Source of the DNA: Acidobacteriota bacterium
GTDB lineage: Bacteria; Acidobacteriota; Terriglobia; UBA7540
Direction of reading: 5' to 3'
Assembly: GCA_003165615.1 (NCBI GenBank)
Contig: PLWR01000176.1
Coordinates: 1 to 44,628, forward strand
DNA length: 44,628 nt
Below are positions 34,233-44,628 of this stretch, piece after piece. The notes under the pieces are model-generated. The model saw nothing but the letters and a program-made list of their open reading frames with translations. It searched no databases and was not told where the DNA came from. The number at the start of each line of letters is the position of its first letter. The stretch's first letter is position 1. Position numbers and translations under genes: made by a program.

Positions 34233-34475
34233 GGCGGCACGGGACCAATGAGGGTGGAAGCTGCGGTTTCGGCGGGACTAACGAGGTGGCGGAAAAACCT
34301 ATCAAACTGTCATTCTGAGGAGGTTGCCGCGGCGACCGATGAAGAATCTCGCCTTGTCTTGAAAACACTCAGAGCTAGATCCTTCGCTGCTGCTCAGGAT
34401 GACAGCATTTGGTGGCGGCGCATACAGGAAAGGCAATGTAGTCGCCACCCGCGGTAATCGAAAGGACAAAGGACA
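34233..34475. other. Spacer between rhaT and the aldolase gene
   Basis: 243 bases, half of them taken by the second copy of the GCGGAAAAA element. An AAAGGACA ribosome site stands just before the aldolase ATG. No gene. Confidence 0.6.
34288..34412. repeat. Dispersed ~140-bp element, copy 2 (right end decayed)
   Basis: Same sequence family and orientation as the copy at 27724: starts GGCGGAAAAACC, has CTGTCATTCTGAGGAGG and ends with CTGCTCAGGATGACAG. The right-hand TTTTTCCGC terminus is missing. Confidence 0.7.
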
Positions 34476-40376: not shown

Positions 40377-41309
40377 ATTCAAATTTCCCATAAAGCACTT
40401 CGCGGACCGGTAAACCTGCTGGACCTTATTGGCAGCACGTCACTGGTGCGCCTGGCGCGAATTCGCCCCGCGTCGCCCGAGGTTGAAATCTACGCCAAGG
40501 CGGAATGGGAGAATCCCGGGGGCTCGGTGAAGGACCGACCGGCTAAGAACATCATTCGCGAGGCGGAAGCCGCCGGGCTGATGTCGCCGGACAAAATCCT
40601 GATCGACTCAACCTCCGGCAACACCGGCATTGCCTACGCCATGATCGGCGCGGCCAAAAATTATCGCATCAAGCTCTGCATGCCCTCCAATGTCAGCATG
40701 GAGCGAAAGCGCATTTTGAAAGCTTACGGCGCGGAGATTGTCTACACCGATCCCATGGAAGGCTCCGACGGCGCCATTCGCTGCGTGCGCGTTCTGGCCC
40801 AGGAGGGTCCCGAGCTTTATTTTTACGCCAATCAATACGATAACCCCGCCAACTGGCGCGCCCATTATTTGACCACCGCTCCCGAGATTTTCGAGGAGAC
40901 AGATGGGCGAGTGACCCACTTCGTGGCGGGGCTTGGCACCAGCGGCACGTTTATCGGCACGGCGCGGCGGCTGAAGGAATTGAACTCCCAAATCCAATGC
41001 CTCTCCTTCCAGCCGGATTCACCTTTCCACGGCCTGGAAGGTATGAAGCACATGCCCACCGCCATTAAGCCGGGGATTTACGATACCAGCGTGGCGGATG
41101 AGAACCTGGAAATCGCGACGGAAGATGCCCACATCATGACCCTGCGACTGGCGCGCGAGGAAGGTTTGCTGGTGGGAGTCTCCGCCGGCGCCGCCATGGT
41201 GGCCGCGCTCAAAGTGGCGAATCGATTGACCCGAGGCGTGGTGGTGACGATCTTCCCCGACAGCGGCGACAAATACTTGAGCGAGCGATTCTGGGACGAA
41301 GGAAGATAA
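40377..41309 (+). CDS. Cysteine synthase family protein (CysM/CysK-like), non-standard start
   Basis: About 310 residues in the fold-type II PLP family. The PLP lysine is in GGSVKDRPAK, the phosphate loop in DSTSGNTGIAYA and the second loop in GLGTSGTFIG; the C-terminus has FPDSGDKYLSERFW. It makes cysteine from O-acetyl- or O-phosphoserine and a sulfur donor. The family N-terminus NLLDLIGSTSLVRL is encoded upstream of the first GTG (40446), but no ATG, GTG or TTG stands in frame there. ATT at 40377 has AAGGG eight bases before it. The JAMM and ThiS-like genes downstream suggest a thiocarboxylate sulfur donor, as for CysM with CysO. Confidence 0.85.
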   Translation: MQISHKALRGPVNLLDLIGSTSLVRLARIRPASPEVEIYAKAEWENPGGSVKDRPAKNIIREAEAAGLMSPDKILIDSTSGNTGIAYAMIGAAKNYRIKLCMPSNVSMERKRILKAYGAEIVYTDPMEGSDGAIRCVRVLAQEGPELYFYANQYDNPANWRAHYLTTAPEIFEETDGRVTHFVAGLGTSGTFIGTARRLKELNSQIQCLSFQPDSPFHGLEGMKHMPTAIKPGIYDTSVADENLEIATEDAHIMTLRLAREEGLLVGVSAGAAMVAALKVANRLTRGVVVTIFPDSGDKYLSERFWDEGR

Positions 41310-41948: not shown

Positions 41949-42956
41949 ATGTTGAATACACGATTTACGTTGTACCCATCCCATCGTTTTGCCTCCCCGA
42001 AGCGGCTGTCGTCCGCGACCGTGGCGCCGGATTCCACAAACCCGCACGGGCAGTCCAGCACCCGCGGCATTCGTCAACGCATTGTGCGCCTTTCGGGAGG
42101 CAGAATTCTCGCTGCCCTGGTCGTTCTACTTGCTCTGACTACGGCTCCGGCTTTCGCGCAGCTCAATTGGGAAGGCCAGACCGGTGGTTTCATCACTCCC
42201 TTTGCCTACACCAGTCCCTCGCCTTCAACCGGGTTCGGAAGACCGCAAGTGGCGTTTCATTACTTCAACGCCGGCCCCGTAATTGGAAACCTCTTTCAAA
42301 CTTCGGTTACGGAAGGCGTCTTCAAGCATGTGGAGTTTGGCTACACGCGGGCGCTGTCGAGCGAAGGCAACACCCCCGGATTGAGCCCTCTCTTTACCGG
42401 CGGTTTTAACATTTTCCACGCCAAGGTGAACGTTCTTGAGGAGAACGCCTTCAAAACCAAGTATCTTCCCGCCATCTCCGTGGGCTTCGTGGCCAGGACC
42501 CAGGTCGAGCGCGTGGGTGGAGTCTTGGATTCGAAAAGCACTTGGAATGGAGATTTCTACGTGGTGGGCACCAAAACCATCACGCAGATCAAAGTGCTGC
42601 CCATTGTGCTCAATGCCGGCTTTAAGGAAACCAACGCGTCGGTATTCGGCATTGCCGGAAATTCTCCGGCGTGGGTGGGCCGGTTCTTCGGAACGGGCGC
42701 CATCGTAGTGAAAGGTCCCAAGAAAAGCGCGTTTATTTTCGGGTCGGAGATTGTGCAGCAACCACGCTACATCGAGGGGCTCCAGGGTCCTACCATCCCC
42801 ACCACGGTCACCTATGTTTTCAGGTTCCTCCCGGGGCTTGAGAAGGCTAAGCTGAATTTTGATTTTGGAGTGGCTCAAGCCGTAGGGGTTATCTCGCCGG
42901 GCGTCAACATCCAGGCGCGCCATCAGGTGGCGACTGGTATATCGTATCAATTCTAG
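41949..42956 (+). CDS. Predicted beta-barrel outer-membrane protein of unknown function
   Basis: A 335-residue protein. An unusually long, basic N-terminal stretch (residues 1-50) comes before a signal peptide core RILAALVVLLALTTAPAFA, cut before QLNWEGQTGG. The mature part is rich in short amphipathic strands (VEFGYTRAL, YLPAISVGFVARTQ, TTVTYVFRFLPG) and ends in aromatic GISYQF, the Bam-type C-terminal signal of outer-membrane barrels. No specific family was recognised with confidence. CAGGAG stands before the ATG, directly behind the terminator. Confidence 0.8.
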   Translation: MLNTRFTLYPSHRFASPKRLSSATVAPDSTNPHGQSSTRGIRQRIVRLSGGRILAALVVLLALTTAPAFAQLNWEGQTGGFITPFAYTSPSPSTGFGRPQVAFHYFNAGPVIGNLFQTSVTEGVFKHVEFGYTRALSSEGNTPGLSPLFTGGFNIFHAKVNVLEENAFKTKYLPAISVGFVARTQVERVGGVLDSKSTWNGDFYVVGTKTITQIKVLPIVLNAGFKETNASVFGIAGNSPAWVGRFFGTGAIVVKGPKKSAFIFGSEIVQQPRYIEGLQGPTIPTTVTYVFRFLPGLEKAKLNFDFGVAQAVGVISPGVNIQARHQVATGISYQF

Positions 42957-43210: not shown

Positions 43211-43684
43211 ATGGCTTTGAAACTTCGGAATGAGCAACAGGAAGCAATCCGCCAGCACGCCGCGCGGGACTATCCCAGCGAGTGCTGCGGGGTGTTGTTG
43301 GGGAAGGCCGATGGCGACACGAAGGTGGTGACGGAAGTTGTGCCGCTCACCAACTTGCGCCACGATCCCACGCGCGCGCAGGAGCTATTGCCCCTGGACG
43401 ATCAGAGCAGGGAAACGGAGAAGAACCGCTTTCTGATCGATCCGCTGGACCAGTTGCGGGTGGAAAAGGGAGCGCGGGCGCGGGGGCTTGACGTGCTGGG
43501 CTATTATCACTCCCACCCCGATCATCCAGCGCGGCCTTCAATTTATGACCGCGACCACGCGTGGCCGTGGTACTCTTATGTTATAATCTCAGTTGAGCGG
43601 GGCACGCCCAAAGACTTGACGAGCTGGGTTTTGGCTGAAGACCGGTCAGCCTTTGCGGCAGAGTTAGCGGAAGTGGCGAATTAA
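43211..43684 (+). CDS. JAMM/MPN metalloprotease (Mec/QbsD-like)
   Basis: A 157-residue single-domain protein. The zinc site is complete: Glu24 in SECCGVLLG, then HSHPDHPARPSIYD with His100, His102, Ser110 and Asp113. Bacterial members cut after the Gly-Gly of small ubiquitin-like sulfur carriers: Mec releases cysteine from CysO, and QbsD trims the tail of QbsE. The nearby ThiS/MoaD-like gene encodes a protein with eight residues after its Gly-Gly, a natural substrate. It ends before the repeat at 43689. Confidence 0.92.
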   Translation: MALKLRNEQQEAIRQHAARDYPSECCGVLLGKADGDTKVVTEVVPLTNLRHDPTRAQELLPLDDQSRETEKNRFLIDPLDQLRVEKGARARGLDVLGYYHSHPDHPARPSIYDRDHAWPWYSYVIISVERGTPKDLTSWVLAEDRSAFAAELAEVAN

Positions 43685-43688
43685 GAGC

Positions 43689-43823
43689 TTGCGGAAAAAT
43701 GCCCCAATGCTGTCATCCTGAGCAGCAGCGAAGGATCTTGCTCTGAGCGTTTTCAAGGCAACGCGGGATTCTACGTCGCCTGCTGGCTCCTCAGAATGAC
43801 AGTGTCATTGAGTTTTTCCGCAA
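43689..43823. repeat. Dispersed ~140-bp element, copy 3 (inverted)
   Basis: Begins TTGCGGAAAAAT and ends TTTTTCCGCAA. The inside reads opposite to copies 1 and 2: CTGTCATCCTGAGCAGCAGC near the left end and CTCCTCAGAATGACAG near the right. Confidence 0.75.
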
Positions 43824-43858
43824 CCTGCTAAGCCCTGAAATATTGATGGCGAGAAGAG

Positions 43859-43912
43859 TTGTAGCGCCGACCTTTGGGTCGGCACTTGTTGAACCAAAGT
43901 TCAGCGCTACAA
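43859..43912. repeat. GTAGCG-type palindromic element, 54 bp
   Basis: TTGTAGCGC at 43859-43867 is repeated inverted as GCGCTACAA at 43904-43912, with an inner CGACC-TTTG-GGTCG hairpin. Confidence 0.65.
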
Positions 43913-44022
43913 AATTTGTAAACCTGCATAAGATGGGTTGGAATCGTTCGGCTTTGCATTGCATCGATATAGTTAGGGCGGAAATCCTCGATGCCCCTCG
44001 AACCGTAACCCAAGGAGAGCTA

Positions 44023-44322
44023 ATGCCAGTTAAGGTCATCATCCCGACTCCGCTGCGGCAATATGCGGATAAGAAGGAGTCGTTGGAAGTGCAGGCAAAA
44101 ACGGTGGCGGAAGCGCTCGCAGCCATCACCTCACAGTATAGCGACCTGCGCAAGCACCTCTATAACGATGAAGGCAAGCTCCGAAGTTTCGTCAATATTT
44201 ACGTTGGTGACGAAGACATTCGCTTTCTGCAGAAAGATCAAACTCCCTTGAAGGAAGACGATGTGATCAGCATCGTACCTTCCATTGCCGGCGGCACGGA
44301 CCACTGTTGTATCTGTAGCTAG
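44023..44322 (+). CDS. ThiS/MoaD-like sulfur carrier with a Cys-rich tail after Gly-Gly
   Basis: A 99-residue ubiquitin-fold protein: VKVIIPTPLRQYADKKESLE at the start, SFVNIYVGDEDIRFL in the middle and DVISIVPSIAGG near the end. The Gly-Gly (residues 90-91) is the adenylation and thiocarboxylation site in this family, but here TDHCCICS follows it, so a protease must act first. The JAMM protease gene just upstream and the E1-like gene just downstream fit that. The likely job is sulfur donation for cysteine or a cofactor, as CysO in Mycobacterium. AAGGAG lies five bases before the ATG, and upstream open-frame residues derive from a repeat. Confidence 0.88.
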   Translation: MPVKVIIPTPLRQYADKKESLEVQAKTVAEALAAITSQYSDLRKHLYNDEGKLRSFVNIYVGDEDIRFLQKDQTPLKEDDVISIVPSIAGGTDHCCICS

Positions 44323-44515
44323 CCTGGGTTCCCACCCGGAAATGCCGGGGTGGCGAATCCCGGGCGCATCCCACCCGCGAATCCCAATAGTTCTCTGCCA
44401 TCAGTAATCAGTCATCAGTCCGAAACCCCATGCCCTGGTGACAACTGAGGACTGAAAACTGACCGCCGAACACGGACAACTGACGACTGACAAGTTTTTA
44501 CGAAAGGATTTGCCA
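44323..44515. other. Spacer with ACTGA/TCAGT tandem motifs
   Basis: 193 bases without a gene. TCAGT-spaced motifs at 44400-44421 are mirrored by ACTGA motifs at 44441-44490, so the two groups can pair in a long imperfect hairpin. An AAAGGA ribosome site precedes the next ATG. Confidence 0.5.
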
Positions 44516-44628
44516 ATGAGCACAGCGACCATGACTCCGCCCGTGCAATTGAGTAAAGACGAGATCCTGCGTTACAGCCGCCACCTGATCATGCCGGAAG
44601 TCGGCATGGAGGGCCAACTGAAGTTGAA
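44516..44628 (+). CDS. ThiF/MoeB-type E1-like adenylyltransferase (N-terminal part, runs off the window)
   Basis: Thirty-seven codons are seen before the window ends: after a short lead, LSKDEILRYSRHLIMPEVG and the following GMEGQLKL match the N-terminus of MoeB/ThiF proteins. This enzyme activates the C-terminal glycine of ThiS/MoaD-like carriers with ATP. It is the natural partner of the carrier gene 193 bases upstream. AAAGGA stands seven bases before the ATG. Confidence 0.88.
   Translation, partial: MSTATMTPPVQLSKDEILRYSRHLIMPEVGMEGQLKL

Follow-up and report, generated by a model that had tools for sequence, protein, structure and literature searches.

A putative cysteine leader peptide at the 3′ end of a capped sulfur carrier gene in Acidobacteriota

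We analyzed a window of 44,628 nucleotides (contig PLWR01000176.1) from an Acidobacteriota bacterium, the end of which is occupied, judging from sequence matches, by a cysteine-type sulfur cluster comprising cysM, a JAMM protease gene, a carrier gene, and moeZ, all on the forward strand. The first gene of this conserved cluster (40446..41309, +) encodes a CysM-like cysteine synthase (Pfam PALP, E 9e-61). Its product scored 342 bits against the TIGR01138 cysM model, which is under the cut-off of 394 for that model, and the closest solved sequences were the cysteine synthase B chains 2jc3 and 2bhs, with the Mycobacterium tuberculosis enzyme 3dki scoring lower. The frame runs on upstream of the listed GTG at 40446 (LIGSTSLVRL), and this GTG is probably an internal start. 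The gene order beginning with the CysM-like gene is the same in relatives. A JAMM metalloprotease of the Mec/QbsD type is encoded at 43211..43684 (+; Prok-JAB PF14464, E 1.5e-28), with the zinc-site motif HSHP..SxxD intact in the translation. The sulfur carrier ORF (44023..44322, +) has 99 codons and ends with SIVPSIAGG-TDHCCICS before TAG. Its core of the ThiS/MoaD/CysO type (residues 1–91; 44023..44295, +) ends at Gly-Gly, where the Pfam ThiS match (PF02597, residues 5–91) also stops, and eight more residues follow. The closest solved relatives of the carrier by sequence were 4n6e_B and the M. tuberculosis chain 3dwg_C (CysO). The start of moeZ (adenylyltransferase/sulfurtransferase; 44516..44628, +) is truncated by the window end; the 37 visible residues of this ThiF/MoeB-type sequence gave a partial match to MoeZ models (NCBIfam) and are 90% identical to the MoeZ of locus L001. 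These data confirm the three gene assignments of the first-pass annotation, which had been made from the letters of the DNA: a Gly-Gly carrier with the eight-residue tail TDHCCICS, a JAMM protein with an intact zinc site upstream, and a ThiF/MoeB-type enzyme downstream.

To describe the residues that follow Gly-Gly, 81 carriers were compared (that of the window and those of 80 loci). Gly-Gly was followed by at least one residue in 81/81, and the homologues ending exactly at Gly-Gly that would have spoken against the first-pass annotation amounted to 0/81. The extension was 1–5 residues long in 36 carriers and 6–40 residues long in 35, and the remaining 10 were fused in frame to MoeZ through Gly-Gly (L032, L034, L037, L038, L040, L050, L052, L068, L077, and L079). 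Such a carrier-MoeZ fusion is possibly a two-part precursor for the JAMM protease. A JAMM gene was detected beside 79 of the 81 carriers, and 78 of these genes retain the full HSHP..SxxD motif; for the L068 fusion, where it was not detected, the contig begins at that place. Because a JAMM protein with this motif is nearly universal beside capped carriers, trimming by JAMM is probably general among them. Relatives with short Cys-free caps (GG-K, GG-R, or GG-AE) or with a MoeZ fusion have the same JAMM neighbor; trimming therefore does not depend on a Cys tail. The earlier proposal that the carrier must be trimmed by JAMM before activation is thus plausible and of a known kind (QbsE/QbsD).

The C-terminal tail TDHCCICS (44296..44319, +) is encoded by ACG GAC CAC TGT TGT ATC TGT AGC. 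Among the best 120 of 5232 carrier homologues (P0001–P0120), a C-x-C-x terminus with the Cys pair abutting the stop was found in 112/120, which answers in the affirmative the question, raised with the first annotation, of whether the tail is conserved. At least two Cys were present within the last six residues in 115/120 of the same set, and in these 115 the Cys pair remained terminal across tails of 5–24 residues; P0038, P0045, and P0087 have unrelated tails. As a separate observation, the spacer from Gly-Gly to the first Cys was 4, 12, or 20 residues in 76, 24, and 4 of 113 classified homologues, respectively; each step corresponds to 24 nt, which would fit repeated insertion of a unit of that length. 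From these alignments, the cysteine-rich tail is not due to chance. Its distribution is narrow: at least two Cys in the last six residues were found in 22 of the 25 loci matched to one order (the exceptions being L019, L021, and L025) and in 2 of the remaining 55 loci (L054 and L078). The Cys tail is thus probably a later addition within one order, and the trimming is probably older and general.

Nucleotide conservation at the carrier loci (the best 80 of 495) extends beyond the carrier stop, as TGY ATC TGT AGC TAG CCTGGG followed by a hairpin; the first-pass annotation had noted neither this nor the recurrence of the element upstream of cysK. The conserved leader element, consisting of the Cys codons, the TAG stop (44320..44322, +), and the hairpin, spans 44302..44365 (+) and scored 71.2 bits with covariance model R1, a value that includes self since the window belongs to the training set. 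We examined codon usage in 28 carrier copies, namely 24 from the pattern search of the order, the window, L025, L046, and L134; the stop is TAG in 28/28 by construction, because the copies were chosen with TAGCC at the stop. The Leu and Arg before the Cys codons are the commonest residues at their positions (18/28 each), and their codons vary synonymously (Leu: CTC9, CTG6, and CTT3; Arg: CGC12, CGA3, CGG, CGT, and AGA). The first Cys codon was TGC in 16 copies and TGT in 10, two copies being without the first Cys, and the following residue was I, V, A, T, or F. In regards to the Ile codon, the third base was C in 28/28 while the first two bases varied, and the second Cys codon was TGT in 28/28 and never TGC (TGT usage, second vs first Cys codon: Fisher p 2.5e-7, kinship uncorrected). 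The segment ATC TGT AGN TAG CCTGG is almost invariant as nucleotides, and the Cys codons sit 12 and 6 nt ahead of the stop. Because the third positions of Leu-Arg-Cys vary while the Ile-Cys bases are fixed, the upstream half of the tail (Leu-Arg-Cys) looks selected as codons and the downstream half (Ile-Cys and the hairpin base) as RNA. No Rfam match was obtained up to E 5 for window positions 43600–44628, and the exact 18-base element pattern was not found in viral contigs.

The hairpin (44322..44365, +; GCCTGGG...CCCGGGC with an inner stem) starts from the G of TAG, and folding gave such a hairpin in 37/37 copies. The analyses of the hairpin, start site, ribosome site, tail, and U-run omit L101, L107, and L114, which are 3-mismatch matches outside the order. 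The first paired base was inside TAG in 33 copies and was the next base in 4. Folding energies ranged from -18.9 to -38.4 kcal/mol, and the z value was below -1.5 in 30/37 copies (median, -2.4; worst, +0.46). The inner 5′ arms were distinct in all 37 copies, and every one lay within a folded stem. In the covariance-model alignment, which favors the modeled helix, 92.7% of the cells of the basal helix pair, and the values were 64.5 and 56.8% when the helix was slid by one. Two-sided changes were found at 1/7 basal pairs, since this helix is nearly invariant. RNAalifold gave no consensus (0 pairs) on the raw alignment A2, we think because the 3′ arms are misaligned there; alignment A3 leaves out L023 and the L001 cysK copy, which were misaligned in A2. 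A small 5′ hairpin seen in some folds (GCUGC-AUCU-GUAGC) was discarded, as CGA, CGG, and AGA codons disrupt it in others.

Directly 3′ of the hairpin lies a C-rich, G-poor stretch (44366..44395, +; base counts). C exceeded G in these 30 nt in 33/37 copies and in the following 30 nt in 15/37. From its composition, this stretch is a possible Rho loading site. A U-run was present in just 1/37 copies, and an intrinsic terminator was rejected. The exposure of the ribosome site of the next gene, computed for the 35 of 37 copies in which a start was located, rose in 7 and fell in 15 by more than 0.05; no consistent effect emerged, and we rejected alternative pairing as a means of hiding the ribosome site of moeZ or cysK. 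A riboswitch or aptamer was likewise set aside, the loop and stem sizes being too variable.

We searched 399 genomes drawn from the class for the element with at most 3 mismatches, and 47 of them gave matches. In one Terriglobia order (that of G001), 28/40 genomes carry 33 copies; the other 19 matching genomes gave one 3-mismatch match each, as the reversed control pattern also yields. The 33 copies comprise 24 at carrier ends, 8 before cysK (G001, G002, G005, G006, G010, G133, G148, and G187), and 1 before a possible transporter gene. The gene next to the carrier-end copies is moeZ in 23 of 24, the exception being G075, and a gene of the cysteine pathway lies downstream of 31/33 copies in the order, with G075 and G183 as the exceptions. 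The G183 copy (L128:3031-3646) has 3 mismatches and a frame ending ...CAPCTCR*, and the gene that follows weakly matches PF03601 (E 3e-4, under the curated cut-off, over a 76-residue piece); PF03601 proteins are often annotated as putative sulfate exporters. Divergent carrier copies beyond the 33 were seen in G148 and G109, and a weak G179 match was dropped, as the element sequence is not kept in it. A cysK relative at E <= 1e-80 occurs in 10/40 genomes of the order, and the element precedes it in 8 of the 10. In the other two, G003 and G122, the pattern search gave no copy, and a search of the coding strand of their cysK regions at up to 6 mismatches gave no degenerate copy except the carrier copy of G003. 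Phylum-wide, a model search with stricter filters gave 5/396 genomes at E <= 0.01, of which G001 alone was strong.

The cysK copies contain no full carrier in the reading frame of the element, and in the 7 copies besides G187 a start codon with a ribosome site is not conserved. In classes that overlap by the in-frame choice of start, 3 of the 7 have an ATG immediately at hand (MRCICS/R) that lacks a Shine-Dalgarno sequence, and 2 of these 3 possess one at another, farther ATG; in 2 others, ATG starts occur that have no Shine-Dalgarno sequence or none nearby; and 2 have GTG or TTG starts only, without a Shine-Dalgarno sequence. These copies, whose start site is not conserved, may instead act as untranslated RNA. 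In G010 (L181), a second carrier, 54% identical and ending GG-F, lies between the element and cysK.

Some lineages have lost part of the element. The Cys codons outlast the hairpin in the sister genomes G183, G144, and G175: the carriers end with DLCCN, DLCCC, and PRCCC, folding of the first 65 nt counted from the stop gave -9.5, -4.3, and -5.3 kcal/mol, respectively, and moeZ starts about 30 nt past the carrier stop. In G187 (L129:2401-4153), a 23-codon ORF comes after the JAMM gene, and the hairpin and then cysK-cysE follow it. This ORF has an AGGAG site, the first carrier residues, part of SIAG, and the tail VLRCICT. Neither a carrier (at E 1e-3) nor a close moeZ (best, 33%) was found in the G187 genome, and moeZ is likewise missing from the 6 kb stretch; G187 is a single case, and its genome is a draft in which cysK contains unread bases. 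In G075 (L127), the genes behind the carrier copy run in the opposite direction, moeZ is not next to it, and the moeZ relatives in the genome are distant (40% or less). The first Cys codon of this copy is now Gly, and its hairpin, the one with the positive z, is no better than shuffles. From G075, it is as if the element decays once moeZ has gone.

On this evidence we propose, with a probability of about 0.64, that the carrier, a functional biosynthetic gene, has a cysteine leader peptide (a ribosome-read attenuator) encoded by its final codons. Cys codons are present near the stop of a translated frame, and the element precedes genes for the biosynthesis of the same amino acid in 31/33 copies. 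The classical forms of attenuator, namely a U-run terminator and masking of the ribosome site, were not found, and neither is claimed. A start would be provided in the carrier copies by the carrier itself and in G187 by the 23-codon ORF with AGGAG, the other cysK copies having no conserved one. Ribosomes translating the carrier would pass x-L-R-Cys-I-Cys-S and halt at TAG, at the start of the hairpin. Judging from the positions, a ribosome short of Cys-tRNA would pause on the Cys codons, which lie 12 and 6 nt upstream of the stop, leaving the hairpin able to form; with ample cysteine, a ribosome at TAG would cover the 5′ arm of the hairpin. The position of the ribosome would set transcription into moeZ, the putative regulated gene of the leader element; where the second copy is present, it would do the same for cysK-cysE. 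Because U-runs are all but absent and ribosome-site masking is not consistent, our guess is that Rho, working at the C-rich stretch 3′ of the hairpin, is the probable route, and pausing would raise the expression of the cysteine-making genes. By analogy with known capped carriers, JAMM would then remove the tail after Gly-Gly, and MoeZ would activate the carrier. We lean slightly towards a broader reading, in which a metabolic protein bears the amino-acid sensor of its own pathway as a disposable tail that JAMM removes for activation, the leader having been freed again by gene decay in G187. If true, the decay in G187 would show that leader peptides and protein tails interconvert.

The element could instead act as RNA without translation, as a hairpin for protein binding, processing, or stability, with the Cys codons a by-product of an in-frame TGYATCTGTAG. 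The near-fixed nucleotides of ATC TGT AGN TAG CCTGG and the cysK copies without a clear start codon are consistent with this explanation, but the third positions of Leu-Arg-Cys vary as in coding sequence, poly-Cys tails remain without the hairpin in G183, G144, and G175, and the Cys end stays in frame over many spacer lengths. Moreover, the hairpin size and loop are free to vary, unlike in an aptamer, and Rfam has no match in window positions 43600–44628. We therefore regard an RNA element free of translation as unlikely.

In nascent-chain arrest, which we liken to TnaC, the L-R-C-I-C-S peptide itself would hold the ribosome on the stop codon; the signal would be cysteine or a thiol metabolite and not codon starvation. 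Arg and Leu are the commonest residues before Cys (18/28 each), and the Cys pair abuts the stop in 112/120 of the best 120 of 5232 homologues, both of which would suit such a peptide. The ends CCN, CCC, CTCC, and SACC, however, have cysteine alone in common, and the residue after the first Cys is variable (I, V, A, T, or F), which makes arrest by a specific peptide distinctly unlikely. The E. coli tna leader resembles the present element in that its frame ends beside an unstructured stretch, but it is a stand-alone arrest peptide, and the role of Rho here is putative. That Rho-dependent leader is named as a parallel in the part of PMC1262725 that deals with cys leaders.

A function of the Cys-rich tail in the protein itself, through metal binding or redox gating of the trimming, had been raised in the first-pass annotation. 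It agrees with the conservation of the cysteines, also in the lineages without the hairpin, but we consider it very unlikely: in the second half of the tail it is the nucleotides that are conserved, and this continues past the stop, the element also lies before cysK with no full carrier in frame, other Terriglobia with the same gene set have short Cys-free caps, and a trimmed-off tail would be of no use to the mature carrier. We know of no bacterial machinery for a prenylation-like CaaX reading of CICS. That the tail is an arbitrary extension, tolerated because JAMM trims it, fits the presence of at least one residue past Gly-Gly in 81/81 carriers but is hardly credible, as random caps would not share C-x-C-x, the hairpin, and a copy before cysK.

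Leader peptides are usually seen as separate short ORFs without a useful product, and here a working gene apparently performs this job with its own 3′ end. What would make such an arrangement possible is the protease that cuts after Gly-Gly in this carrier family. For mycobacterial cys operons, leader peptides with Cys codons near the stop have been predicted (Seliverstov 2005, PMC1262725); the relevant section describes no conserved hairpins and suggests Rho. The leader proposed here resembles those in having Cys codons before the stop, cysteine genes downstream, and no intrinsic terminator; it differs in that theirs, as that section presents them, are separate short ORFs without a conserved hairpin, whereas ours is the end of the carrier gene with a hairpin at the stop. 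Canestrari 2020 is cited for cysteine-responsive regulatory short ORFs in passages of PMC9094748 and PMC13236596. According to an extract of PMC2965389, Acidobacteriota have almost no predicted attenuators with an associated function. Among the papers listed in our literature search, which covered few subscription journals, we saw none on a carrier whose C terminus is a leader peptide and none on a cysteine attenuator from Acidobacteriota.

M. tuberculosis has a CysO-CysM-Mec-MoeZ cysteine pathway. The 3dwg carrier chain ends at the residue aligned to Gly-Gly, whereas none of the carriers here do so, all being capped. Operon type 4c of Iyer 2006, in the portion of that study bearing on such operons (PMC1779556), contains a carrier, JAMM, E1-rhodanese, and cysteine synthase and includes an acidobacterium; the present cluster is like this operon and the mycobacterial pathway in bringing together a carrier, JAMM, a cysteine synthase, and an E1 with rhodanese. 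The same portion foresaw JAB cleavage of fused carriers, and cleavage of a MoaD-MoaE fusion at Gly-Gly is described in a passage of PMC4326299. Capped carriers cut by QbsD-type proteases are represented in the relevant text of PMC6006322 by QbsE/QbsD, PtmS2/PtmS1, and capped PtmS2/PtmS3. The carriers here are like QbsE/QbsD and PtmS2/PtmS1 in having residues past Gly-Gly and a JAMM gene nearby, but the caps in that text are of one or two residues, whereas here those with the conserved Cys end are mostly of 8, 16, or 24 and are tied to an RNA element. If the leader reading is true, some C-terminal extensions of Gly-Gly carriers may be regulatory rather than catalytic, operon tails and intergenic regions merit a second look, and the element is a testable candidate cysteine attenuator in Acidobacteriota.

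The window has two further features. A DUF3034-like protein is encoded at 41949-42956, between cysM and the JAMM gene; a search of the 80 loci at E 1e-6 gave no match to it. An inverted pair of a dispersed repeat occupies 34274-34412 and 43703-43835, with one copy between the JAMM and carrier genes; its 76-nt arms are 89% complementary, and a further pair of 49-nt arms is 71% complementary.
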